A stretch of DNA of 28,815 nucleotides from a virus (IMGVR_UViG_3300045454_000128:1-28815); one strand, 5' to 3'. Numbered from the stretch's first letter, positions 5,456 to 28,065 are shown. Numbers and translations are program-made. Notes: generated by a model from the letters alone, not told the origin.

Positions 5456-7626
5456 CCGCGCACCGTCTCGTAGGCGCTGCCGCCGCGGCGGATCGCGTCC
5501 AGCGTCATCGCCGAGGCCTGCCGCGCGATCTGGCCAGCGAGCAGCCGCAGCCGTGCCTCGACGCCTGCGTCCGCGCCGCGCGCATCGATGTTGATGGTCT
5601 GCTGGATGACCGGGCCGCCGGGCGCCATGCCGTTCGGCAGCACGGTCCCGCCGCGGTCCGGCACGAACCACTCCGGGCCCCGCTCGCCGACGATGTAGGG
5701 CTGGCCAGCCGCGACCGGCCCGCCCTCCGCCCGGAACAGACCGCCGAGCCAGGAGCCGATGCCGTCGAACCAGCTGCCAGCACCGAGGCTGGTGAGACCC
5801 GCCGAGACGGCGTTGCCCAGCGGCTCGGTGATGGTGCGCCGCGCGATGATGCGGGTGATGTCCTGCAGCAGGCCCTGCATGACCTTTGACAGCTTGTCGC
5901 CGCGGACGATCGCGTCCTCGAAGGCCGAGGAGAACGCGAAGCCCAACTCGCGCGCTGCCTCCCGCGTCCCCTCGGTGCTGCGCTGGAGGCGGCGCTCGGC
6001 CTCCTCCAGATCCTCCAGCGCGCGCTGCGCCTCCCGCCCTATCGTCTCGTCCGGGATCGGCCGGCCGGCGCGCTCGGCGCGCTGCACCAGGTCGGACAGC
6101 CGCTCCAGCCCGCGCTGGTAGCGCTCGTAGGCGGTCTCGTTGTCCTGGATGAGGCGCTCGCGCTCGCGCAGCAGGTCGTTCAGCTGCCGCTCGGCGTCGC
6201 GTGCCTCCCGTGCGCCCTCGGTGCTGGCGCGGCGCACCGCGGCGACGCGAGGCTCCAGCCGGCGCAGCGCCTCATCTCGCTCCTGAAGTGCGAGGGTCTC
6301 GAGGCGGGTGCGCTCGGCGGCGGTGACGCCACCAGCGGCCTCGGCCTCACGCAACCGGCGGACCCGCTCTTCGTATTCCCGGTTGATCCGGAAGCGGTCG
6401 TCGAGGTCTCGGGTGAGCTCCTGGACGTCCTGCGTGGCGCGGCGCCGGCGGGCATCGGCGGCGGCCTGGCCGGCGCGCTCCTGCTCCTCCAGGCGGCGGT
6501 TCAGCGATTCCCGCTCGGCGGTGTCGATCTCGGCCAGCGTGGCGAAGTAGTCGCGGCGCAGTTCCTCCAGCCGCGCCCGGCTGTCGACGCCGGCCTGCTG
6601 CTCGGCGGTGCCGACCAGGCCGGGGCGGATGCTGCCGCGGCGCACCGGGGCGCGCAGGCTGTCGCGGCCGTCGCCCTCGCTCTCCAGCCGGCCGATCTGG
6701 GCCGAGAGCGCCTCGGCCTGGCGGCGCAGGCCGGCGAGGCGTTCCTCCTCGCTGCGCAGGCCGGCGCCCTGGCGGACGCTGTCCACAGCGCGCGCGGCGG
6801 CCGACAGTGCCCGGGCCAGCGCGTTGGACAGGCCGATGGCGCGGTCGAGCTGGCCCAGAAAATTCTCGGTCGCCGCCGTCAGCTGCCCGAAGGCGCGGCC
6901 GAGCGAGAGCGGGGCACGGTCGAGCTCGGCACCGAGGCGTTCGGTGGCGCGCAGCAGCGCCGGGAAGACCCGCTCGGCGGTGAGCTTGCCCTCGGAGCCA
7001 AGCTTGCGGAGCTCGCCGATCGAAACGCCGAGCTCGCGGGCCAGGCCCTCGGCCAGCAGCGGCATGGCCTCGAGGATCGAGCGCAGCTCGTCGCCCTGCA
7101 GGACGCCCGAGGCCAGCGCCTGGGCCAGCTGGAGGGTCGCGCTGCTGATCTCCTGCGTCGATGCGCCGGAGACGATGGCGACGCGCTGCAGGCCGCCGAC
7201 AAGGCGCACCACCTGATCGGAGGTGGCGCCGATCTCGCGGGCGGCGATCGAGAAGCGCTGGAAGGCGTCGACGCTCTCCGACACTGCGACGCCGGTGGAG
7301 AGCGCGTTGCGATACAGCGCCTCGTAGACTTGGCCGGCGCGCTCGACCAACCCGGTGGCGTTCTGCAGGCGCGAGAGGCCCTGGGTGAGCGCGTCGCCGG
7401 CCTGGACGAGGGCGCGGGCGGCCACCGCCACGCCGGCGAGCTGGATGCCGCGGGTGGCGACGTCCAGCAGTTCGAGGGACCGGGAGGCGCGCTCGGCGCC
7501 GCCCTTGATCTGGTCGAGGGAGCGCTGGCCGGTCTCGCCCACCTCACGCAGCCCGGCCTTGACCCGGGCAGCGTCGTCCAGCGAGAGGCGGACCGAGACG
7601 CGGCGGGTTGCATCAGATACCGTCAT
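5452..7626 (-). CDS. Tail tape measure protein
   Basis: A 724-residue tape measure, the scaffold that sets tail length and is ejected ahead of the DNA. Residues 60-260 match the tape-measure domain found in lambda-like tails ('GVLQGDELRSILEAMPLLAEGLA', 'KLTAERVFPALLRATERLG', in parts). Residues about 280-570 are Arg/Glu-rich and strongly coiled-coil. The C-terminus carries the typical 'EGGPVAAGQPYIVGERGPE' segment of lambda gpH-type proteins. At about 0.15 nm per residue the tail would be near 110 nm (inference from length only). The start is ATG; the frame is open to a TTG three codons earlier. An IS110 element lies about 15 bases upstream, so this gene is separated from the chaperone gene it normally follows. 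Confidence 0.9.
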   Translation of the reverse strand: MTVSDATRRVSVRLSLDDAARVKAGLREVGETGQRSLDQIKGGAERASRSLELLDVATRGIQLAGVAVAARALVQAGDALTQGLSRLQNATGLVERAGQVYEALYRNALSTGVAVSESVDAFQRFSIAAREIGATSDQVVRLVGGLQRVAIVSGASTQEISSATLQLAQALASGVLQGDELRSILEAMPLLAEGLARELGVSIGELRKLGSEGKLTAERVFPALLRATERLGAELDRAPLSLGRAFGQLTAATENFLGQLDRAIGLSNALARALSAAARAVDSVRQGAGLRSEEERLAGLRRQAEALSAQIGRLESEGDGRDSLRAPVRRGSIRPGLVGTAEQQAGVDSRARLEELRRDYFATLAEIDTAERESLNRRLEEQERAGQAAADARRRRATQDVQELTRDLDDRFRINREYEERVRRLREAEAAGGVTAAERTRLETLALQERDEALRRLEPRVAAVRRASTEGAREARDAERQLNDLLRERERLIQDNETAYERYQRGLERLSDLVQRAERAGRPIPDETIGREAQRALEDLEEAERRLQRSTEGTREAARELGFAFSSAFEDAIVRGDKLSKVMQGLLQDITRIIARRTITEPLGNAVSAGLTSLGAGSWFDGIGSWLGGLFRAEGGPVAAGQPYIVGERGPEWFVPDRGGTVLPNGMAPGGPVIQQTINIDARGADAGVEARLRLLAGQIARQASAMTLDAIRRGGSAYETVRG

Positions 7627-18859: not shown

Positions 18860-20902
18860 TCAGCGCAGATAGGACGGGGTGAACACGCGTCGGCCGCGCA
18901 GCAGACGACGGCGCAGCACGCCGGCAGACGGTTGTGGCGGCTCGGTATCGTCCGGGCGCTCGGGTGCCACTGGTGCAGGCACGTCATCATCGCCGCCACT
19001 GGGGGTGACCTGCGCCTCGAGATCCCGCCAGGTCGCCTCGGTCCAGCGATCCGCGCCGGCAATCCAGGCCGCGGCGCGCGCATAGACGCGGCAGTCCAGG
19101 ACCTCGTTACGGTTGTACAGCTTCTGCCATTCCAGCCGAGCGAAGCCGCGCTTCGTGCGCACGCTCACCAACTGCTCGGCCACCAGCTGCTTCACCCATT
19201 CCGCTTCCATGCCGCGCGGCAGGTGGACGTAGCCGGCGGGGTAGAGTGCGCCCTCGGCGAGTTCCTCATCCGTCGGCCGGCTGAGCCGCAGGAAACGGTA
19301 GGTCTCGCTCTTGAACGTCGCCACCGCGACGGTCCAGAGCCGCGCGCCGCGGCGCAGCTTGCGCCCGCCCTCGGTCACATCGACGTAGCTCGGCCCGACG
19401 ATCGGCGCGGCGCGGTTGAACCCGTCCACGCCCTTCACCGGCACCACCTGGGCATGCCCGGCGCGGCGCGCCCAGGCATACACAGCCGGCGCCTCGTAGC
19501 CGGTGTCGATCGCCAGCTTCGCCAGCCCCAGCCGCGCCCCGTTCGCGTGCGGCCAGGTGCGGCCGAGCAGCGCGGTCAGGCTCGCCCAGGTGCCGGCATG
19601 CTCGGGCCCGCCATCGATGATGACGTGATCGACGAACCAGCTCTCCAACCCACGGCCCCAGGCCCAGATCGAGACCTCGATCCGGTCGCGCTGCACGTCG
19701 GCGCCGGCGGTGAGGAACAGCGCGCCACGTGGCACGATGCCGATCGGCCAGTCCTCGCGGCGCTCATACAGCCGCTGCCAGTCCGGCGCCTCGCCGCTCT
19801 CCTGCCAGGTCTCGCCCAGCACCGTGTTCTTGAACGTCTTGATCGCGCGGTCGTCGCCCTGCGCCGCCTCCCACGACCGGGCGATCTCGCTCCAGGCCAG
19901 CCACCCCACCGGCGAATAGAGCGCCGAGATATGGAAGCCGATCGTGTGGGGATCGGCGGATGCGGCCGTGGCGCGCCAGGCGCCCTCGGCCAGCATCGCG
20001 GTCTTGTGCTGCTCGCCGATCGGATGATCGCACGCCTCGCACAGATACGTGGCACCCTCCGGCTCGCCCTTCTGCCAGACCAGCCGCTCGAACCGCAGCC
20101 ACTGCATCGCGTTGCAGCGCGGGCACGGAACGAAAAAGCGGCGCTGGTCGGAGGCCAGGTACTCGCGCTCGATGCGCGACAGCCCGGCAATCGTTGGCGT
20201 CGAGACCAGGAAGGTCTTGCGGCGCCAGCCGAAGGTGCGTGCCCGCGCCTCGGCCAGCGCAATCGGATCGCCCTCGCCCTCGACGTCGCCCGGATAGGCG
20301 TCGATCTCGTCGAGGAACAGGAACCGCGCGCTCATCGAGCGCAGGCCCACCGCGCTGTTGGCACCGGTCATCACCAGCTGGCCGCCGGGGAACTCCTTCG
20401 AGAGCTGGCGGTTGCCGGAGTCCCGCGAGCGCGCCGGGGCGACCCGCTCGCGGATCGCCGGCGTCTCCTCGATCAACGGATCGATGCGCTGGTCGGAGAA
20501 GCGCTTGGCGAGCTCCGTGGTCGGCTGCACCGCCAGCATCGGCCCCGGCGCGTGGTGCACCACGTAGCCGATCCAGTTCGTCCCCACGGTGGTCGCACCC
20601 ACCTGCGCCCCCTTCATGAACACCACCCGCCGCCCCGGGTGCGACGGCGACAGCGCGTCCATCACCTCGCGCAGGTAGGGCGTGCGCGACGTCCGGTACG
20701 GGCCGGGCTCGGCGGAGTCGCGCGAGCCGAGCACGCGGTGCCGGTCGGCCCACTCCGAGACCAGCAGCGCCGGCTCGGGGGCGAGGCCATCGCGCCAGGC
20801 CTGGACGATCTCAAGGTCGCCGTCGAACCGGCCGATCTCCGTGAGAATCGGGACCCCAGCGCGCTCGCGCGCTGGGAACCCGTGGCGGTCCAGGCCGGTC
20901 AT
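18860..20902 (-). CDS. Terminase large subunit (GpA family)
   Basis: A 680-residue packaging motor and nuclease of the lambda gpA type. The ATPase domain shows a Walker A-like 'KGAQVGATT' (97-105) and Walker B 'FLFLDEIDAY' (about 194-203). A zinc-ribbon-like set C260, C263, C288, C291 ('CPRC', 'CEAC') follows. The nuclease part (about 400-600) has acidic candidates in 'TAGADVQRDRIEVSIWAWG' and 'LAIDTGYEAPAVY'. The C-terminal 60 residues are Pro/Asp-rich. GpA terminases usually cut at cos sites, so packaging is probably cos-type. The ATG overlaps the small-subunit stop by ATGA; the open frame further upstream is an out-of-frame shadow of that gene. Confidence 0.94.
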   Translation of the reverse strand: MTGLDRHGFPARERAGVPILTEIGRFDGDLEIVQAWRDGLAPEPALLVSEWADRHRVLGSRDSAEPGPYRTSRTPYLREVMDALSPSHPGRRVVFMKGAQVGATTVGTNWIGYVVHHAPGPMLAVQPTTELAKRFSDQRIDPLIEETPAIRERVAPARSRDSGNRQLSKEFPGGQLVMTGANSAVGLRSMSARFLFLDEIDAYPGDVEGEGDPIALAEARARTFGWRRKTFLVSTPTIAGLSRIEREYLASDQRRFFVPCPRCNAMQWLRFERLVWQKGEPEGATYLCEACDHPIGEQHKTAMLAEGAWRATAASADPHTIGFHISALYSPVGWLAWSEIARSWEAAQGDDRAIKTFKNTVLGETWQESGEAPDWQRLYERREDWPIGIVPRGALFLTAGADVQRDRIEVSIWAWGRGLESWFVDHVIIDGGPEHAGTWASLTALLGRTWPHANGARLGLAKLAIDTGYEAPAVYAWARRAGHAQVVPVKGVDGFNRAAPIVGPSYVDVTEGGRKLRRGARLWTVAVATFKSETYRFLRLSRPTDEELAEGALYPAGYVHLPRGMEAEWVKQLVAEQLVSVRTKRGFARLEWQKLYNRNEVLDCRVYARAAAWIAGADRWTEATWRDLEAQVTPSGGDDDVPAPVAPERPDDTEPPQPSAGVLRRRLLRGRRVFTPSYLR

Positions 20903-21471
20903 GCCACCGTGATCCGCACGTCGTTGCGCTCGGCGAGCAGCGTGCGCAGCCGCGCATCGAGCATCGTCTGCAGCCGGTGCGCATCGACGCCGAGCTCGGC
21001 CGCCATCTCGGCGGCGACCCGTGCCGGCCAACCCAGGATGGCGTCACGCTCCTCCTTCGCCAGCCGGTGCACCAGCAGCAGCGCGCGCGCCTTGTCGACC
21101 AGCAGGCCCTTGCGCTCCTCGAGGCGGAGCTTGCGCTCCTGCGCCTTCAGCATCTCGTTGGCGGTGCGCGCGGTGTGGTAGCTCGACCCGCTCGCCGGCG
21201 GGTCGAGCGCGGGCGCCCCGATCGGCAGTGGCTTCGCCGCCGGACGCGGCGGCGGGGGCGGTGGCGGCGTGGCGGTGATCGCGGCGGTCTTGCGCGCCGG
21301 ATCGGCCGTGCTGGCGAGCTGGGCGCGAACCTTCGCGACGTCCCAGCGCCCGTCCGGCTCCGGCGCGATGCGCCCCGACTGGACCGCCTTCTGCAGCGCG
21401 GTGTGGGAGATGCCGAGCCGGCGCGCCACCTCGCGCTGCGAGGCGACCAGCCCGGCCTCAGAGCCGATCAT
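20899..21471 (-). CDS. Terminase small subunit (Nu1-like)
   Basis: A 190-residue protein starting the late operon. Residues 8-50 form a winged helix-turn-helix ('SQREVARRLGISHTALQKAVQSGRI'; in part), the DNA-binding fold that recognises cos in lambda Nu1. A Pro/Ala linker (about 65-95) leads to a charged helical domain ('NEMLKAQERKLRLEERKGLLVD'; in part) for oligomer formation and binding to the large subunit. The gene opens next to a divergent small-gene cluster, with a pair of TGATCA boxes just upstream. Start ATG at 21471. Confidence 0.85.
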   Translation of the reverse strand: MIGSEAGLVASQREVARRLGISHTALQKAVQSGRIAPEPDGRWDVAKVRAQLASTADPARKTAAITATPPPPPPPRPAAKPLPIGAPALDPPASGSSYHTARTANEMLKAQERKLRLEERKGLLVDKARALLLVHRLAKEERDAILGWPARVAAEMAAELGVDAHRLQTMLDARLRTLLAERNDVRITVA

Positions 21472-21475
21472 GATG

Positions 21476-21495
21476 TGATCAAATCCGCCTGATCA
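21476..21495. promoter_or_regulatory. Paired TGATCA boxes between divergent transcription units
   Basis: Two identical palindromes TGATCA (21476-21481 and 21490-21495) are 8 bases apart, between the small terminase start (21471) and leader A (21497). Equal boxes at a fixed short spacing in a divergent intergenic region look like an operator. No binding protein is known; chance occurrence is possible. Confidence 0.35.
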
Positions 21496-21496
21496 T

Positions 21497-21594
21497 CGCA
21501 ATCTTCGGATCGTGCCTGCCGCTTGGCTCACGCGCGCCCCAGCGCGAATGGTCCTCACGTGCGCAGAACGATGCGCCGAGCAACACAGAGGACC
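21497..21594 (+). promoter_or_regulatory. Repeated leader, copy A
   Basis: CGCAAT (21497-21502), 20 bases, TTGGCT (21523-21528), 17 bases, GAATGGTC (21546-21553). It is followed by a perfect 7-bp inverted repeat GGTCCTC (21550-21556)/GAGGACC (21588-21594) whose 3' arm contains the Shine-Dalgarno sequence of the next gene. TTGGCT-N17-GAATGG has sigma70-like spacing. The same arrangement occurs at 21885 and 23636. Confidence 0.65.
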
Positions 21595-21597
21595 ACG

Positions 21598-21849
21598 ATG
21601 ATGAGCACCAGCAAGCCTGCCCCGCTCCGGATCATCTTCGACTCCCGCGAGTTCGAGCTTTCGCACGGCAGGGCGCCGCGCGGGCGCGGCTCCTGGGCCT
21701 TCTCGCGGTACCGGCGCCCCGACCCGCTGTCGAAGGATGTCCACTTCTCGCCCGGTGGCATGACGCTGGCCGAAGCGCGCAAGTGGTTCGTCGCCCGGCT
21801 GCGCGCGATCGGCGTCGAGGGCGAGCACGTGATCTACATCCTGCCCTGA
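21598..21849 (+). CDS. Small phage protein, unknown function (leader A gene)
   Basis: An 83-residue basic protein, 'MMSTSKPAPLRIIFDSREFELSHGR' onwards, ending 'LRAIGVEGEHVIYILP'. No domain is recognised. The N-terminal 'IIFDSREFELSHGRAPRGRGSWAF' (in part) suggests a small beta-sheet and the C-terminal part a helix-strand ('MTLAEARKWFVARLRAIG'). Similar small proteins occur among early or accessory genes of alphaproteobacterial phages. Start ATG at 21598 or 21601 after AGAGGACC; the frame is open back to TTG at 21523 but that part is the repeated leader, conserved at all codon positions, so I treat it as non-coding. It runs divergently from the terminase operon. Confidence 0.6.
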   Translation: MMSTSKPAPLRIIFDSREFELSHGRAPRGRGSWAFSRYRRPDPLSKDVHFSPGGMTLAEARKWFVARLRAIGVEGEHVIYILP

Positions 21850-21858
21850 CGCGGGTTC
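21845..21858 (+). repeat. 14-bp repeat across a stop codon, copy 1
   Basis: CCTGACGCGGGTTC spans the end and TGA stop of the small gene at 21598-21849. The identical 14 bases end the gene at 22228-22437 (22433-22446). This may be a trace of modular duplication or a shared 3' signal. Confidence 0.5.
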
Positions 21859-21884
21859 GAAGATGATCGGGCGCCGCCGCACAA

Positions 21885-21954
21885 CGCAATCGAATGACGC
21901 TCGCTTCTGCTTGGCTCACGCGGACGCCAGCGCGAATGGTCGTCGCGTGACGAC
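21885..21954 (+). promoter_or_regulatory. Repeated leader, copy B
   Basis: CGCAAT (21885-21890), 20 bases, TTGGCT (21911-21916), 17 bases, GAATGGTC (21934-21941), then hairpin GTCGTC (21939-21944)/GACGAC (21949-21954) with loop GCGT. The GGAG ribosome binding site follows within a few bases. An alternative pairing CGTGA (21946-21950)/TCACG (21963-21967) would enclose the ribosome binding site. Confidence 0.65.
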
Positions 21955-21967
21955 GATGGAGATCACG

Positions 21968-22213
21968 ATGACCCGGACCGAGAAGCAGGAAGCCCGCGAA
22001 GCCGCGAACCAGCAGCGGAGCCTGGAGGCCTTCATGGCGGCGAAGGCGGAGTTCGACGCCCTGGTGGCCGAGTTGCAGGCCATGAGCGCGGATCACTTCG
22101 GCGCCGACCCCGAGACGGCGGTCTGGGAGCACGCCGAGATGCTGAAGGACTGGAACACGCGCCTGCGCGACATGACCGACGCCTACCACCGCCGCGGCGA
22201 GTACGCGCAGTGA
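21968..22213 (+). CDS. Small acidic helical phage protein, unknown function (leader B gene)
   Basis: An 81-residue protein, almost wholly helical and charged: 'MTRTEKQEAREAANQQRSLE', then 'AFMAAKAEFDALVAELQAMSADHFG' (in part) and 'LKDWNTRLRDMTDAYHRRGEYAQ'. No family recognised; coiled-coil or antirepressor-like small proteins are possible but unsupported. Start ATG after GGAG (about 8 bases). Its stop is 15 bases before the next gene, with which it forms a two-gene operon behind leader B. Confidence 0.6.
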   Translation: MTRTEKQEAREAANQQRSLEAFMAAKAEFDALVAELQAMSADHFGADPETAVWEHAEMLKDWNTRLRDMTDAYHRRGEYAQ

Positions 22214-22227
22214 GCGGGGAGGAGACG

Positions 22228-22437
22228 ATGAACGCGACCTACACGATCGAGTTGCAGCGCACGCGCGACGGCTGGGTGTGGGGGATCGACCAGGAGGTCG
22301 ACTACGGTCCGGCCGCGCACATCCCCAGCCGCTACGAGGACGGCGAGACGGCCTTCCCCACCGCCGCCGAGGCCGCTGCCGACGCGGAACGACGCATCGC
22401 CGAGATCGAGGCCGGCAAGCACCGCCGCCTGACCTGA
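22228..22437 (+). CDS. Small phage protein, HicB/antitoxin-like fold possible, unknown function
   Basis: A 69-residue acidic protein. 'YTIELQRTRDGWVWGIDQEV' looks like the first beta-hairpin of a small alpha-beta fold seen in HicB-like and other small proteins, followed by 'AFPTAAEAAADAERRIAEIEAG', a typical following helix (in part). It lacks a HicA partner nearby, so I do not call it an antitoxin. Strong GGGGAGGAG ribosome site, ATG at 22228. Operon partner of the preceding gene. Confidence 0.55.
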   Translation: MNATYTIELQRTRDGWVWGIDQEVDYGPAAHIPSRYEDGETAFPTAAEAAADAERRIAEIEAGKHRRLT

Positions 22438-22446
22438 CGCGGGTTC
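22433..22446 (+). repeat. 14-bp repeat across a stop codon, copy 2
   Basis: Identical to 21845-21858 (CCTGACGCGGGTTC), again including the TGA stop of the upstream gene. Confidence 0.5.
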
Positions 22447-22495
22447 CGCCCGCACTGCCCCGACGGGCCTCTGGTCCGCGGGGCTCGGGGCCGTA

Positions 22496-22519
22496 GGGGG
22501 CGGCATGGGGCCGCTCCCC
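22496..22519 (+). promoter_or_regulatory. Hairpin in the leader of the DUF3489 gene
   Basis: GGGG...CGGC (22496-22504) pairs with GCCG...CCCC (22510-22519) across a small internal loop; an AGGAG ribosome site (about 22524) and the ATG at 22538 follow. It lacks the CGCAAT/TTGGCT/GAATGG boxes, but the hairpin-then-ribosome-site order is similar to leaders A to C. Confidence 0.3.
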
Positions 22520-22537
22520 GAACAGGAGCCCCGAACG

Positions 22538-23377
22538 ATGGAACTCTCCGATACCCAGTTGCTGGTGCTGAACGCCGCCGCTTCGCGCGAGGACAAGCTG
22601 GTGACGAAGCACAAGCGGCTGCCCGGCGCGTCGCTGCAGAAGGTGTGCGCCGCGCTGGTGAAGCGCGGCCTGCTCGCGGAACTCTCGGGCGTCTCGCGCG
22701 ATCCGGATGTGCTGAAGGCGAAGACGGAGCTCGGCATGACCGAGTACGCGATCACCCCGTCCGGGCTCGCCGCGATCGGCGTCGATGATGACTCTCCCTA
22801 CGGCGAGGAGTTGCCGAAGGACGTGCGCGCGGGCGTCGATCCGTTCCTGATCGAGGGTCCGGACAACAACCCGCCGGACGAGGCCGACACGGCGCCCACG
22901 GGCGCGGAGGACGCGGCGGAGGCCGCTACCCCCGCGGCGGAGGCGACGGCGCGCCCCACGGCCGCCACGGCGCCAACGCGGGGCAACCTGCGCGCCGCCG
23001 CCCAGGCGGTGCTCGATGCCTGGGACGACGAGGACAACCAGCGCTACGGCCTGACGGAGGCGATCGACGGACTGCGCGCCGCCCTCGCCAGCCCCACGCG
23101 CGCGGACCGCGAGCCTGGCGCGCCGCGGAAGCCCCGCGCGGGCACGAAGCAGGAGGCGGTGCTCGCCCTGCTGCGCCGTCCCGAGGGCGCGACGATCGCC
23201 CAGATCGTCGAGGCCACTCAATGGCAGTCACACACCGTGCGCGGCTTCCTCGCCGGGCTGAAGCGCAAGGGCATCACCGTCGAGGTGCTGGAGCGGGTGC
23301 GCCAGGTCGGCCCCAACAAGGAGGGCGCGAAGGGGTCGTTCTCGGTGTACCGACTGGCGACGGACGGAGCGCAGTGA
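22538..23377 (+). CDS. DUF3489 domain protein
   Basis: A 279-residue protein. Its C-terminal 75 residues match the DUF3489 pattern: 'GTKQEAVLALLRRPEGATI', 'VEATQWQSHTVRGFLAGLKRK', and 'FSVYRLA', which looks like a winged-helix DNA-binding fold. The N-terminal part ('LSDTQLLVLNAAASREDKLV', 'ASLQKVCAALVKRGLL') looks like another winged helix common to the same proteins. An acidic Ala/Pro-rich linker (about 105-160) lies between. It is probably a DNA-binding regulatory or accessory protein of phages and plasmids; no target is known. Start ATG with AGGAG upstream. It overlaps the next gene by one base (TGATG). Confidence 0.8.
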   Translation: MELSDTQLLVLNAAASREDKLVTKHKRLPGASLQKVCAALVKRGLLAELSGVSRDPDVLKAKTELGMTEYAITPSGLAAIGVDDDSPYGEELPKDVRAGVDPFLIEGPDNNPPDEADTAPTGAEDAAEAATPAAEATARPTAATAPTRGNLRAAAQAVLDAWDDEDNQRYGLTEAIDGLRAALASPTRADREPGAPRKPRAGTKQEAVLALLRRPEGATIAQIVEATQWQSHTVRGFLAGLKRKGITVEVLERVRQVGPNKEGAKGSFSVYRLATDGAQ

Positions 23378-23580
23378 TGAGCGACTTCATCCTGCGCATC
23401 CGCACCTCGGGGCCGGCGTTCCAGCACTGCCCGACCGCGGAAATCGCGCGCATCCTGCGCACCCTCGCCGACGAGCTCGACCAGCTCCGCTTCGCCGGCG
23501 CCTGGCCGCGCCCGCTGCACGACAGTGACGGCAACCGGGTCGGCCAGGCGGAGTTCGTGTTCACCCCGCCCGAGGCGTGA
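23377..23580 (+). CDS. Small conserved phage protein, unknown function
   Basis: A 67-residue protein, 'MSDFILRIRTSGPAFQHCPT', then the helix 'EIARILRTLADELDQLRF' and a strand 'GQAEFVFTPPEA'. This alpha-beta pattern occurs in many small phage and plasmid proteins encoded beside DUF3489, whose function is unknown to me. Its ATG overlaps the DUF3489 stop (TGATG), so the two are translationally coupled. A GC-rich hairpin 16 bases downstream probably ends the transcript. Confidence 0.6.
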   Translation: MSDFILRIRTSGPAFQHCPTAEIARILRTLADELDQLRFAGAWPRPLHDSDGNRVGQAEFVFTPPEA

Positions 23581-23595
23581 TCTCCGGCTCCCACG

Positions 23596-23617
23596 CCGCC
23601 GCCCACCCGGGCGGCGG
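23596..23617 (+). terminator. GC hairpin after the DUF3489 operon
   Basis: Perfect 9-bp stem CCGCCGCCC (23596-23604)/GGGCGGCGG (23609-23617) with loop ACCC, just after the stop at 23580. There is no T-run, so termination is uncertain. A second perfect hairpin, TGCGTTC (23621-23627)/GAACGCA (23633-23639), follows and overlaps leader C. Confidence 0.4.
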
Positions 23618-23635
23618 TGCTGCGTTCGGCAAGAA

Positions 23636-23722
23636 CGCAATGTTATGATCGCGCACTCAACTTGGCTGCGCGGCGCACCAGCGCGAATGGTCCGTCACGG
23701 CGGGGAATGGCCCTCGCCGTGA
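23636..23722 (+). promoter_or_regulatory. Repeated leader, copy C
   Basis: CGCAAT (23636-23641), 20 bases, TTGGCT (23662-23667), 17 bases, GAATGGTC (23685-23692), then a perfect 8-bp hairpin TCACGGCG (23695-23702)/CGCCGTGA (23715-23722), extended inside by GGG/CCC. The GGAGG ribosome site (23725-23729) and ATG (23734) follow immediately. A TATGAT hexamer (23644-23649) lies in the N20 spacer. Confidence 0.65.
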
Positions 23723-23733
23723 TGGAGGTCCAC

Positions 23734-23955
23734 ATGCCGCTGATCCGCCTGACCGACGCGACGTACAGGACCATCGCGAGCATCACCATCGGCACGTTCC
23801 GGTCCACCGGGCAGCGCCAGCCCGACGGCACCTGGCTGGTGCCGATCGAACAGCGTGTGTTCGACAACATCCAGGCGATGCGCCTGCCCGGGGAGACTGA
23901 CGAGGACGTGATCCAGCGCGCGATCCACATTTCGCTCGGCCGCCGCCCGTCCTGA
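23734..23955 (+). CDS. Small phage protein, unknown function (leader C gene)
   Basis: A 73-residue protein, 'MPLIRLTDATYRTIASITIG' to 'DEDVIQRAIHISLGRRPS'. The order strand, helix, strand, helix and the segment 'ETDEDVIQRAIHISLG' recall the dimer arms of ribbon-helix-helix or SeqA-like small DNA-binding proteins, where an 'RLTDATYRTI' strand-helix would touch DNA. This is a weak resemblance only. I chose the ATG after GGAGG; an in-frame ATG four codons upstream has no such site. It converges with the methyltransferase gene, 8 bases apart. Confidence 0.55.
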   Translation: MPLIRLTDATYRTIASITIGTFRSTGQRQPDGTWLVPIEQRVFDNIQAMRLPGETDEDVIQRAIHISLGRRPS

Positions 23956-23963
23956 TCGGGTGA

Positions 23964-25238
23964 TCACGCCGCCGCACGCACACCGCGCATGGCCGCGACG
24001 TCGGCGAACGCGCGATCCTCGCCCGCGAGCACGGCCGTCGCGCCCGTGAGACGCTGCCACCGCTCGATCGTCACGTCGCAGTAGCGCGGATCGATCTCCA
24101 TCGCGACGCAGACGCGGCCGGTGAGCTCGGCCGCGATCAGCGTCGTGCCGCTGCCGAGGAACGGATCGTACACCGCCTCGCCGGGTGCGCTGTTGTTCAC
24201 GATCGGTCGGCGCATGCAGTCGAGCGGCTTCTGCGTGCCGTGCACCGTCTCGGCGTCGTCCTCGGCGCCGACCATGGCGATCTGCCAGAGCGTGGTCTGG
24301 TCGCGCGCACCCTGCCAGTGCCCGGTCGCGCCCTGGCGCACCGCGTAGAGGCAAGGCTCATGCTGCCAGTGGTAGTCGCCACGGCCGAGCACCAGCCGCG
24401 GCTTGGCCCAGATGATCTGGCTGCGCACCGCGAAGCCAGCCGCCTCGAGGCTCTCGATCACGGTGCGCGCATGCACGCCCGCGTGCCACACATAGGCGAC
24501 GTCACCGGCGAACAGCGCCCAGGCCTCGCGCCAGTCGGCACGGTGGTCGTTCAGCACCTTGCCGACACGCATCGTCGCAGACACCCCTGCGGCGTTGCGC
24601 CATGCGGGGTCGTAGTTCACACCGAAGGGAGGGTCTGAAACGAGGAGATGCGGCTGCGCCCCGGCCAGCAGCCGCGCGACGTCGGCGGGATTGGTGGCGT
24701 CGCCGCAGAGCAGCCGGTGCCGGCCGAGCAACCACAGATCGCCGGGACGCGTCACCGGCTCGGCCGGCGGCTCCGGCGCGGGCTGGTCGGCCGCCTCGGC
24801 GGCGGCCGCATCGTCCAGCGCGATGCCGGTCTCGGCGAGCAGCCGATCCAGCGCCGCCTGGTCGAAGCCGAGCAGGCCGAGATCCACCGCGTCGGTGCGG
24901 AGCGCGCGCAGCTCCGCTGCGAGCAGGCTCTCGTCCCAGCCGGAGTTGAGCGCGATCTGGTTGTCGGCGAGACGATAGGCGCGCGCCTGCGCCTCGCTCA
25001 GATGGCCGAGCCGGATCGCCGGCACCGCGTCCAGGCCGAGCCGCCGGGCGGCCAGCACGCGGCCATGCCCGGCGATCAGCACACCGGCATCGTCGAGCAG
25101 CACCGGCACGTTGAAGCCGAACTCGGCAATCGAGGCGGCGATCTGCGTGATCTGCTCGTCCGGATGGGTGCGCGCGTTCGCCGCATAGGGCAGCACCCGA
25201 TCGAGCGGGATGCTCTCCACGCGCAGCTGGGAACCCAT
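23964..25238 (-). CDS. ParB-like domain plus DNA methyltransferase, copy 1 (DPPF)
   Basis: A 424-residue two-domain protein. Residues 1-140 are a ParB/Srx-like domain with 'PYAANARTHPDEQI', 'IAGHGRVLAARRLG' (ParB box II-like) and 'YRLADNQIALNSGWD'. Residues 165-424 form a beta-class amino-methyltransferase. The catalytic motif IV is DPPF (202-205), which usually marks N6-adenine methylation, and the S-adenosylmethionine motif I 'DPFLGSGTT' (358-366) comes after it. The two domains are joined by an acidic Ala/Pro linker. I start at the ATG within the palindromic repeat 25234-25257; the frame is open further upstream, but no convincing ribosome site is seen there. It lies 25 bases downstream of copy 2, in one operon. 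Confidence 0.88.
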   Translation of the reverse strand: MGSQLRVESIPLDRVLPYAANARTHPDEQITQIAASIAEFGFNVPVLLDDAGVLIAGHGRVLAARRLGLDAVPAIRLGHLSEAQARAYRLADNQIALNSGWDESLLAAELRALRTDAVDLGLLGFDQAALDRLLAETGIALDDAAAAEAADQPAPEPPAEPVTRPGDLWLLGRHRLLCGDATNPADVARLLAGAQPHLLVSDPPFGVNYDPAWRNAAGVSATMRVGKVLNDHRADWREAWALFAGDVAYVWHAGVHARTVIESLEAAGFAVRSQIIWAKPRLVLGRGDYHWQHEPCLYAVRQGATGHWQGARDQTTLWQIAMVGAEDDAETVHGTQKPLDCMRRPIVNNSAPGEAVYDPFLGSGTTLIAAELTGRVCVAMEIDPRYCDVTIERWQRLTGATAVLAGEDRAFADVAAMRGVRAAA

Positions 25239-25257
25239 CGCGGCTTGCCGCGATGGG
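25234..25257. repeat. Palindromic repeat, copy 2 (at methyltransferase start)
   Basis: CCCATCGCGGC-TT-GCCGCGATGGG, same 11-bp arms as 16283-16306, with flanks also alike (GGGA before, ACCC after). On the minus strand its last bases provide the ATG of methyltransferase copy 1 (25236-25238). Confidence 0.75.
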
Positions 25258-25263
25258 ACCCCG

Positions 25264-26736
25264 TCAGGCCACATCGGCGAGAGCCTCGGCGCGCTCGGCT
25301 GCCACCGCGTCGTAGCCGCGGCCATCGCCGGCGAGCATGACGGGAACGTCCGGATGCAGCATGCGAAAGCGGGCAAGCGCGAGATCGACGTACTGCGGCG
25401 CGAGCTCGATCGCGCGCACGCGGCGCCCGGTGCGCTGCCCCGCGAGGATCGTCGTCCCCGAGCCGGCGAACGGCTCGAACACCACCTCGCCCTCCTCCGT
25501 GTAGGTGCGCATCAGGAACTCCGGCAGCGCGACCGGGAACACCGCCGGGTGCTCGGTCTCGATCCCGCGCGCCTTGTGCCGGGTGATCCGCAGCACGCTG
25601 TCCGGCACACGGAACGGCTGGATCGGCCGCCCCTCGTGGGTGCAGCCGCTCATCGTCCCGTCGGCGCGGCGCAGCCCGGTCATGTGCAGCGGATCGCCCG
25701 CCCACTTGCAGGGCACGATCTTGTTCGCCTGCCGCGCCGTGCGGTTGAAGTGGAACACCAGCTCGAAGGCGGGCGCGAGCCGGCCGTTCCAGTCGCCCGG
25801 CAGGCCGGGCCCCTGGTCCCATGCGTAGAGCGCGAAGCGGCGCCAGCCCTGCGCGCGCATCCAGTCGAGCCAGCCGCGCCAGTACGGCACCCACTCGCCA
25901 TCGCGGTGGATCAGGCCGAGGTTCACCAGCACCTGGGCGTCGGGGCGCATGGCCAGATCGAGATGCACGAACACGCCCTGCATGAGCGCGTCCCAATCGG
26001 AGACGCCACCGGTGGTGTAGTCGCGCTGGCTGCCATAGGGCGGCGAGGTGAACAGCAGCGCGGCCCGATCCTCGGCCATCACGCGGGCGACGCGCGCCGC
26101 ATCCGTGCTGTCGCCGCACAGCAGCCGGTGTTCGCCGAGCAGCCAGAGATCGCCCGGCCGCGTCACCGCCTGCCGCGGTGCCTCCGGCTCGGCGTCCGCC
26201 GGGTCGTCCTCCGGCGCCTCGGTTGCCACCGGCTCGCCACTGGCAACCGCCGGGCTGGCAACCGCCGGGCTGGCAACCGCGCCGTTGCCAGGCTCGGTTG
26301 CCAGCGCATCCAGCCCGGCCAGCAGCCGCTCGATCTCCGCGGCCTCGAACCCCGTCAGCCCGAGGTCGAGCTCGCCCATCTGCTGCAACTGCGCGAGCTC
26401 CTCCGCGAGCAGCGCCTCGTCCCAGCCGGCATTCAGCGCGATGCGATTGTCCGCAAGCCGGTACGCCGCCTTCTGCGCCTCGGTCAGGCCCTGGCGCACG
26501 ATCGTCGGCACCGTCGCCAGACCGAGAGATTTGGCGGCTTCCAGCCGGCCATGCCCGGCGATCACCTCGCCGTGCTCGTCCACCAGGATCGGCGCGACGA
26601 AGCCGAACTCGACGATGCTCGCCGCGATCTGCGCCACCTGCTCGGGCGAATGCGTGCGCGCATTCGCGGCATAGGGCAGCAGCGATGCGACGGGGCGCGC
26701 CTCGACGGCGCTGGCCGACCAGGGGATCTGCACCAT
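25264..26736 (-). CDS. ParB-like domain plus DNA methyltransferase, copy 2 (SPPY)
   Basis: A 490-residue homologue of the neighbouring gene. Residues 1-140 are the ParB-like domain ('PYAANARTHSPEQVAQIAAS', 'IAGHGRLEAAKSLG'). Motif IV is TSPPY (230-234), the form more usual for N4-cytosine enzymes though also found in some adenine enzymes; motif I is 'EPFAGSGTT' (421-429). The linker holds a 15-bp tandem repeat giving PAVAS units (about 153-166). Both copies share the segment 'VTRPGDLWLLGxHRLLCGD' at the domain border, so they arose by duplication. Different motif IV suggests different target bases. Start ATG at 26736; the ribosome site is weak. The frame is open upstream into the TGGCAAC repeat region. 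Confidence 0.87.
   Translation of the reverse strand: MVQIPWSASAVEARPVASLLPYAANARTHSPEQVAQIAASIVEFGFVAPILVDEHGEVIAGHGRLEAAKSLGLATVPTIVRQGLTEAQKAAYRLADNRIALNAGWDEALLAEELAQLQQMGELDLGLTGFEAAEIERLLAGLDALATEPGNGAVASPAVASPAVASGEPVATEAPEDDPADAEPEAPRQAVTRPGDLWLLGEHRLLCGDSTDAARVARVMAEDRAALLFTSPPYGSQRDYTTGGVSDWDALMQGVFVHLDLAMRPDAQVLVNLGLIHRDGEWVPYWRGWLDWMRAQGWRRFALYAWDQGPGLPGDWNGRLAPAFELVFHFNRTARQANKIVPCKWAGDPLHMTGLRRADGTMSGCTHEGRPIQPFRVPDSVLRITRHKARGIETEHPAVFPVALPEFLMRTYTEEGEVVFEPFAGSGTTILAGQRTGRRVRAIELAPQYVDLALARFRMLHPDVPVMLAGDGRGYDAVAAERAEALADVA
26240..26280. repeat. 15-bp tandem repeat in the methyltransferase 2 linker
   Basis: CTGGCAACCGCCGGG repeated at 26240-26254 and 26255-26269, and partly at 26270-26280. 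Being a multiple of three it adds PAVAS units to the interdomain linker without a frameshift. GTTGCCA occurs again just beside it. Confidence 0.75.
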
Positions 26737-27235: not shown

Positions 27236-27559
27236 ATGCCAGCGTCTGCCAAGCGTACCACCAGGCCATCGGCACCCCGCGGAAGCCGCACGAGGACAAC
27301 TACGATTGGCGCGATCAACATCCGCGTGCGTCCCGACGAGCGAGCCCTGATCGATCAGGCGGCCGCCCTCGCGGGGAAGTCCCGGTCGGAGTTCATGCTG
27401 GAGGCGGCCCGTGAGGCTGCAACCACGACGATCCTCGATCGCACGCTGTTCCGCATGGACCCGAACGCGTTCAGCAAGTTCGCCGCGCTGCTCGATGCGC
27501 CGCCGCAGCCGAACGCCAGGCTGCGCAAGCTCATGAAGACCACGGCACCGTGGGCGTAG
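27236..27559 (+). CDS. tacA: DUF1778 antitoxin (TacA-like)
   Basis: A 107-residue protein. After a basic N-terminal tail (1-25), residues about 26-56 form a ribbon-helix-helix domain ('INIRVRPDERALIDQAAALAGKSRSEFMLE', in part), typical of DUF1778 antitoxins. The C-terminal part ('TLFRMDPNAFSKFAALLDAPP') is the segment that wraps and neutralises the GNAT toxin. It binds DNA as a dimer, probably at the TGTATATACA palindrome upstream. Start ATG after GGAGG. The toxin gene begins within its last codons. Confidence 0.88.
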   Translation: MPASAKRTTRPSAPRGSRTRTTTIGAINIRVRPDERALIDQAAALAGKSRSEFMLEAAREAATTTILDRTLFRMDPNAFSKFAALLDAPPQPNARLRKLMKTTAPWA

Positions 27560-28065
27560 CCGCCGGCGTGGGCAGGCTGAGCGCACCGGCCCCGCTCACC
27601 GACGAACACGACCTGTCGCTGTTCAGCAGCGGCGAGCCGCCGCTCGATGACTGGCTGCGCAGGCGTGCGCGTGCCAGCCAGGCATCGGGCGCCTCGCGCA
27701 GCTTCGTGGTGTGCCGGGATGGCTTCGTGGTTGGCTACCACTGCCTCGCCGCCGGCGCGGTGGCGGCCGTCGCGAGCCCTGGCCGCCGGCGTCGCAACGT
27801 CCTCGACCCGATCCCGATGGCGGTGCTGGGCCGGCTGGCGGTCGACCAGTCGCTGCACGGCCAAGGGATCGGACGGGCGCTGCTGCGCGATGCCGTGCTG
27901 CGAACGCTGCAAGCCGCCGAAGTGCTGGCCGTGCGCGGCATGCTGGTCCCGACGCTGAACCCGAAGGCGCAGGGCTTCTATCTCGCCTGCGGCTTCGTGC
28001 CGTCCCCGAGCGATCCGATGCTGCTGATGGCAACGCTTGCCGATCTGGCCGAGGCGGCGGGCTGA
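27550..28065 (+). CDS. tacT: GNAT-family toxin (TacT-like acetyltransferase)
   Basis: A 171-residue GCN5-related acetyltransferase. TacT-type toxins acetylate the amino group of aminoacyl-tRNAs and stop translation. The acetyl-CoA loop 'QGIGRALLRDAV' follows 'LGRLAVDQSLHG', both very typical. 'GSGEPPLDDWL'-like sequence near the start ('FSSGEPPLDDWLRRRA') is the TacT N-terminal signature, and the C-terminal 'AQGFYLACGFVPSPSDP' contains the expected catalytic-region Tyr. It starts at GTG inside the antitoxin gene (10-base overlap), giving coupled translation; a second GTG at 27568 is possible. Complete, hence probably active. Confidence 0.88.
   Translation: MGVAAGVGRLSAPAPLTDEHDLSLFSSGEPPLDDWLRRRARASQASGASRSFVVCRDGFVVGYHCLAAGAVAAVASPGRRRRNVLDPIPMAVLGRLAVDQSLHGQGIGRALLRDAVLRTLQAAEVLAVRGMLVPTLNPKAQGFYLACGFVPSPSDPMLLMATLADLAEAAG

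Follow-up and report, generated by a model that had tools for sequence, protein, structure and literature searches.

What is the short leader that recurs with fixed internal spacing before several small genes of one phage, and does it act as DNA, as RNA or as a joint between exchanged genes? The window, the whole 28,815-base virus record from IMG/VR that was analysed (IMGVR_UViG_3300045454_000128:1-28815), carries CGCAAT-N20-TTGGCT-N17-GAATGG without mismatch at 21497, 21885 and 23636, all on the + strand. A scan of the window returned no further site of this pattern at three or fewer mismatches. In dinucleotide shuffles of the window the pattern occurred 0.02 times on average and never three times; the three fixed-spacing copies of the original prediction are thus exact and far above chance. 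All three copies continue as GAATGGTC, which CAGCGC precedes in each.

Leader copies and their surroundings in the window

The first copy consists of a CGCAAT box at 21497-21502 and the core of the leader at 21523-21558 (TTGGCT, a variable spacer, then CAGCGCGAATGGTC), in which TTGGCT at 21523-21528 is the proposed -35 and AATGGT at 21547-21552 the proposed -10 element. Its hairpin spans 21550-21594 (arms 21550-21556 and 21588-21594, 7 bp), with the Shine-Dalgarno sequence inside the 3' arm, and the small gene of this copy (21601-21849) encodes 82 aa of no family. The second copy has its CGCAAT box at 21885-21890 and its core at 21911-21946, with TTGGCT at 21911-21916 and the proposed -10 AATGGT at 21935-21940. 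Its hairpin at 21939-21954 (arms 21939-21944 and 21949-21954, 6 bp) adjoins the Shine-Dalgarno GGAG at 21958-21961, and behind it lies a gene of phrog_14596 (21968-22213, profile E 2.4e-18), the family found most often behind the leader. A 69-aa small cassette gene (22228-22437), the gene of a DUF3489 protein (22538-23377, E 1.4e-23) and a small cassette gene of phrog_9027 (23377-23580, E 4.5e-10) come next. In the third copy, the CGCAAT box occupies 23636-23641 and the core 23662-23697, with TTGGCT at 23662-23667 and the proposed -10 AATGGT at 23686-23691. The hairpin at 23695-23722 (arms 23695-23702 and 23715-23722, 8 bp) is followed by the Shine-Dalgarno GGAGG at 23724-23728 and by a gene for 73 aa of no family (23734-23955). 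The predicted hairpins of 7, 6 and 8 bp, containing or abutting the ribosome site of a small gene, are therefore seen in the sequence.

All these features and genes lie on the + strand, and their neighbours on either side read the other way. The terminase small subunit gene (phrog_57, 20899-21471, -, E 1.2e-26) is divergent from the cassette, and a DNA methylase gene (23964-25376, -) is convergent with it. At the left edge of the cassette stands GATCATGATGTGATC (21463-21478), which is conserved in both orientations of the cassette and here overlaps the start codon of the terminase small subunit. Elsewhere, the window holds an IS110-family transposase gene (PF01548, PF02371; 7685-9073, -) within the tail gene module beside the tape measure gene, a Hypoth_Ymh gene (PF09509; 9961-10680, +) that is antisense to structural genes and may be cargo, and a TacA1-like antitoxin gene followed by a GNAT acetyltransferase gene (27236-28065, +), likely a toxin-antitoxin pair of the TacAT type.

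A conserved core and where it occurs

Further copies in related genomes, for which the original prediction had proposed a search, were found in hundreds of IMG/VR contigs. Pattern scans of IMG/VR placed the full CGCAAT-N20-TTGGCT-N17-GAATGG in 35 stretches and CTTGGCT-N17-GAATGGTC in at least 120, although about one third of the latter are matches due to chance, in which CAGCGC is lacking and the flanks are unrelated. When we numbered the leader from the A of AGCGCGAATGG and aligned 106 non-redundant copies, conservation peaked from -18 to +24, with looser boxes upstream. Throughout the family the TTGGCT and CAGCGCGAATGGTCCGTCAC blocks were near invariant, and the spacer between them was variable in sequence and nearly fixed in length.

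TTGGCT and GAATGG were in part selected by the search patterns, except in loci chosen by protein and in most of a set of 296 regions. To control for this bias, loci were gathered through the downstream protein family phrog_14596 instead of the motif. In 31 non-redundant loci chosen by this protein alone, -1 to +18 was near invariant, and TTGGCT stood 17 nt from GAATGG in 21 and 18 nt in eight. The exact core was present in 280 of the 296 regions upstream of phrog_14596 genes, a set that includes pattern-seeded loci. Judged from these alignments, the invariant core of the leader is TTGGCT-N10-CNCAGCGCGAATGGTCCGTCAC. The CGCAAT box, which the original prediction had read as an activator site, lies outside this core; it is not conserved family-wide, being often AGCAAT (the usual form in relatives), degenerate or absent, and is a loose feature of a subfamily. 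At -50 to -39 (window 21491-21502), AATCATAGCAAT read leftward resembles an extended -10 element, TGC-TATGAT, or TGC-TATAAT in some copies, and this resemblance is kept in both orientations of the cassette.

These comparisons leave little of two simpler explanations. Copies inside one phage could stem from a local duplication without function, or the repeat could be fortuitous; we regard either as negligible in the face of hundreds of divergent loci in which the core is conserved and the flanks have diverged. Nor do we give any real credence to a protein-coding N-terminus common to the downstream genes, an outcome that the original prediction had set against its own reading. Some single copies share a reading frame with the gene that they precede, but the ATG takes all three possible frames with respect to the core, no relationship links the downstream proteins, and the spacer, 17 or 18 nt long and free in its letters, tolerates a 1-nt insertion with both flanks kept. 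The three frames and the tolerated insertion exclude it.

The distribution of the core pointed to one host family. Scanning species genomes with CAGCGCGAATGGTCCRTCAC gave at least 119 loci, and among the matches listed nearly all were named Acetobacteraceae (the Roseomonas group, Roseococcus, Elioraea, Rubritepida, Caldovatus and others) or unclassified Rhodospirillales. TTGGCT-N11-CAGCGCGAAKSGTC had 88 sites in 41 of 299 sampled genomes of Acetobacteraceae, the host family, and none in 384 other sampled alphaproteobacteria (385 genomes of the class, of which only the centre genome was positive); its reversed control pattern had no match in the sampled genomes. The copy number of the leader ranged from one to three in phages and reached eight in host genomes. 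A search of 50,697 records of isolated phages gave no relative of the leader, and the only DNA likeness there was a short stretch of the DUF3489 region in Acidithiobacillus phage AcaML1, and no Rfam family scored above its gathering score for the leader.

A second class of copies, class B, lies 1.3-1.7 kb further downstream and reads GAATCG or GAAGCG. Class B copies often have a GC-rich, terminator-like hairpin on their 5' side, with a few bases between its end and TTGGCT, and an upstream stem of at least 6 bp was present in 18 of 29 copies of this class versus 22 of 201 in class A. In one class B example (L161, near 6220-6262), a few bases separate TTGGCT from the end of the terminator-like hairpin GCGCCGGG..CCCGGCGC-TTTATC. 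The window parallels class B leaders in a GC-rich 9-bp hairpin 5' of its third copy (23596-23617, +), which is terminator-like and without a clear T run.

Promoter-like elements and the hairpin zone

The reading that we favour, and hold to be somewhat probable, is that each copy serves a small, moron-like cassette of accessory genes in Acetobacteraceae prophages as its autonomous promoter and 5' leader. Host RNA polymerase would read TTGGCT as the -35 and AATSGT as the -10 element across a spacer of 18, with transcripts predicted to start near +17, at about 21558, 21946 and 23697 in the window; a conserved A is found near +17, 6-7 nt after the proposed -10. With a sigma70 matrix averaged over 103 non-redundant leaders, TTGGCT/AATSGT with spacer 18 was the best forward pair (score 4.83), a variant with the same TTGGCT reached 3.84, and all pairs elsewhere fell below 0. 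The predicted sigma70-type promoter thus survived as the best forward pair of the leader, with its hexamers and spacing shifted from TTGGCT and GAATGG to TTGGCT-N18-AATSGT. A strict consensus scan returned no sigma70 promoter in the leader (TTGGCT matches at 4/6 positions, AATGGT at 3/6). The proposed -10 varies mostly at its middle positions, and the A, A and last T stay. In the divergent orientation, moreover, about 55 bp separate the terminase start codon from TTGGCT, so that the cassette cannot be served by an operon promoter upstream and must have a promoter of its own within the leader.

Alphaproteobacterial sigma70 promoters retain the TTG of the -35 element (PMC8407463), and the leader resembles them in this TTG and in a spacing near 17-18. 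It departs from them in being conserved far beyond the hexamers and in a -10 T at -7 that most of them lack (PMC8407463). Both hexamers are weak, and conservation from -3 to +18 goes far beyond the needs of sigma70; we therefore infer that a dedicated DNA-binding regulator may cover this block. A hairpin near the 5' end of the mRNA may further tune stability or ribosome loading, and the upstream terminator-like hairpin would insulate class B copies.

The hairpins raise a different possibility. The core itself (-18 to +11) had no RNA structure (mean z 0.12), and the zone behind it was structured and more stable than shuffles, with a mean z of -1.96 for folds from +12. In this zone the stems matched their own arms in 56 of 113 cases, compared with no more than 49 in any of 200 arm swaps, and one stem pair was A-T in 39, G-C in 16 and C-G in three. 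This covariation in the untranslated zone bears out the earlier claim that hairpin sequence changes while pairing is kept. A promoter and an mRNA hairpin cannot, however, both hold for copies 1 and 2, whose 5' arms overlap the proposed -10 and start: starts at about 21558 and 21946 leave the arms at 21550-21556 and 21939-21944 outside the mRNA, and only in copy 3 is the hairpin essentially inside the predicted transcript. Hairpins that act as RNA in copies 1 and 2 would require transcription to begin upstream of the core.

An RNA leader of that kind would start upstream of TTGGCT and carry the whole core in the mRNA, where CCGUC would pair with GACGG of the Shine-Dalgarno GACGGAG until a protein or small RNA on UUGGCU...GAAUGG freed the ribosome site. 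Folding from +12 lowered Shine-Dalgarno access from 0.73 to 0.52. CCGTC/GACGG was found in 156 distinct leaders and CCATC/GATGG in nine; this stem spans the proposed start, and would thus require one further upstream, and its inclusion raises the structure signal. We nevertheless think an RNA leader rather unlikely. The covariation of this stem is weak, being confined to one pair, with 13 of 500 shuffles reaching its score, and CCATC also meets GACGG in four leaders. The core is unstructured, no forward promoter-like pair upstream of TTGGCT scored above 0 with the averaged matrix, and near-fixed spacing around a spacer of free sequence fits DNA better. A further stem proposed by RNAalifold, TTGGCT/AGCGCGA, was set aside, as all its pairs are invariant and give no evidence either way.

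Apparent cassette exchange, a candidate regulator and known systems

The core preceded 17 protein clusters, several of them single-member clusters that are possibly miscalled ORFs, and 210 of the 306 proteins belonged to the phrog_14596 group. At least ten of the 17 clusters are plausible unrelated small-gene families. On this genomic comparison the core is a portable 5' module of small accessory genes.

The cassette sits between DNA methylases and the terminase in either orientation, and the core sequence is kept whichever way it faces. At 150 loci the cassette ran with the terminase and at 88, the window among them, against terminase and methylases. The window cassette (21463-23987) is inverted relative to three relatives (L145, L008 and L028) with collinear flanks, and one break, at GATCATGATGTGATC, precedes the reference A by 61-75 bases. 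Orientation changed five times on the terminase tree and four times on the methylase tree, compared with 34 and 38 times on trees of the cassette genes, counts that are inflated by noise because the cassette proteins are short. From few flips on the flank trees and many on the cassette trees we conclude that each arrangement is a trait of its lineages, with apparent exchange of the cassette between the two. We rejected an invertible phase-variation switch: a search of the cassette ends gave no inverted repeats, the flank trees show only four or five flips, and orientation follows phage lineage.

Such exchange could mean that the core is kept mainly as a boundary sequence, at which homologous or site-specific recombination swaps cassettes among phages. 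The excess of flips on the cassette gene trees would agree with this, as would the comparison of the window with L018, in which copies are likewise 388 nt apart and the leaders are alike but the cassette genes differ. We consider a boundary role quite improbable, since the small cassette genes make for noisy trees, the ends lack an inverted repeat, and selection for recombination alone would not put the core 40-60 nt before start codons.

If the leader is the promoter that we favour, its regulator may travel with it. A DUF3489 gene lay within 2.5 kb behind the core on the same strand in 149 of 155 clusters, and two winged-helix-like domains were predicted in the protein with moderate confidence. 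This linkage and the predicted domains make DUF3489 the natural candidate, and the protein is plausibly the cassette's own regulator of the leader. Sequence and fold searches of the PDB with DUF3489 gave no significant match, the best being MarR-type and other winged-helix proteins, and a literature search on the family gave a single mention, in a remote-homology survey. It is a doubtful extension of this candidacy that the leader is the target of a cassette-borne DUF3489 regulator and forms a portable, self-contained platform for interchangeable small genes; that such a platform, in either orientation beside the terminase, would be intermediate between morons and integron-like cassette arrays is a suggestion just as tentative.

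The leader is real and conserved and is not described in the sources searched; it is of a known general kind, a phage regulatory leader of accessory genes. Cluster K mycobacteriophages carry start-associated sequences (SAS) and extended SAS (ESAS) upstream of the start codons of several unrelated genes, the SAS consensus being 13 bases at the start site and the ESAS 17-bp imperfect inverted repeats (PMC3203893). Like the leader, SAS are short conserved repeats directly upstream of unrelated phage genes, and about half have an inverted repeat that differs in sequence between subclusters (PMC3203893). The leader differs from SAS and ESAS in its 38-bp core, which lies 20-40 bp upstream of the ribosome site and has promoter-like spacing, in its one to three copies per phage, in another host phylum and in the lack of sequence likeness. 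An alignment of 42 leaders contained no GGGATAGGAGCCC-like SAS repeat at the start site. To our knowledge, the promoters of morons are unrelated to each other, whereas throughout this whole phage group many gene families have one near-invariant leader in common. The cassette recalls prophage morons with promoters of their own (PMC7067206) in that its accessory genes lie between late genes or run against them, would be transcribed independently and in some copies have a terminator-like hairpin on the 5' side. The leader also resembles the boundary sequences of phage modules in being a conserved stretch at the joints of exchanged cassettes, and is distinguished from them by being directional, always 5' of genes and with promoter-like elements (PMC3029335).

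With the leader as a single tag, the accessory-gene locus can be recognised in a large group of unstudied prophages, and whatever gene stands behind the core becomes a candidate for lysogenic conversion, defence or control. It is a test case for one near-invariant regulatory module that serves many unrelated genes, and also for whether the functionally uncharacterised DUF3489 family acts in phage regulation. If the leader is a promoter as proposed, it would be an uncharacterised phage gene switch that is directly testable.
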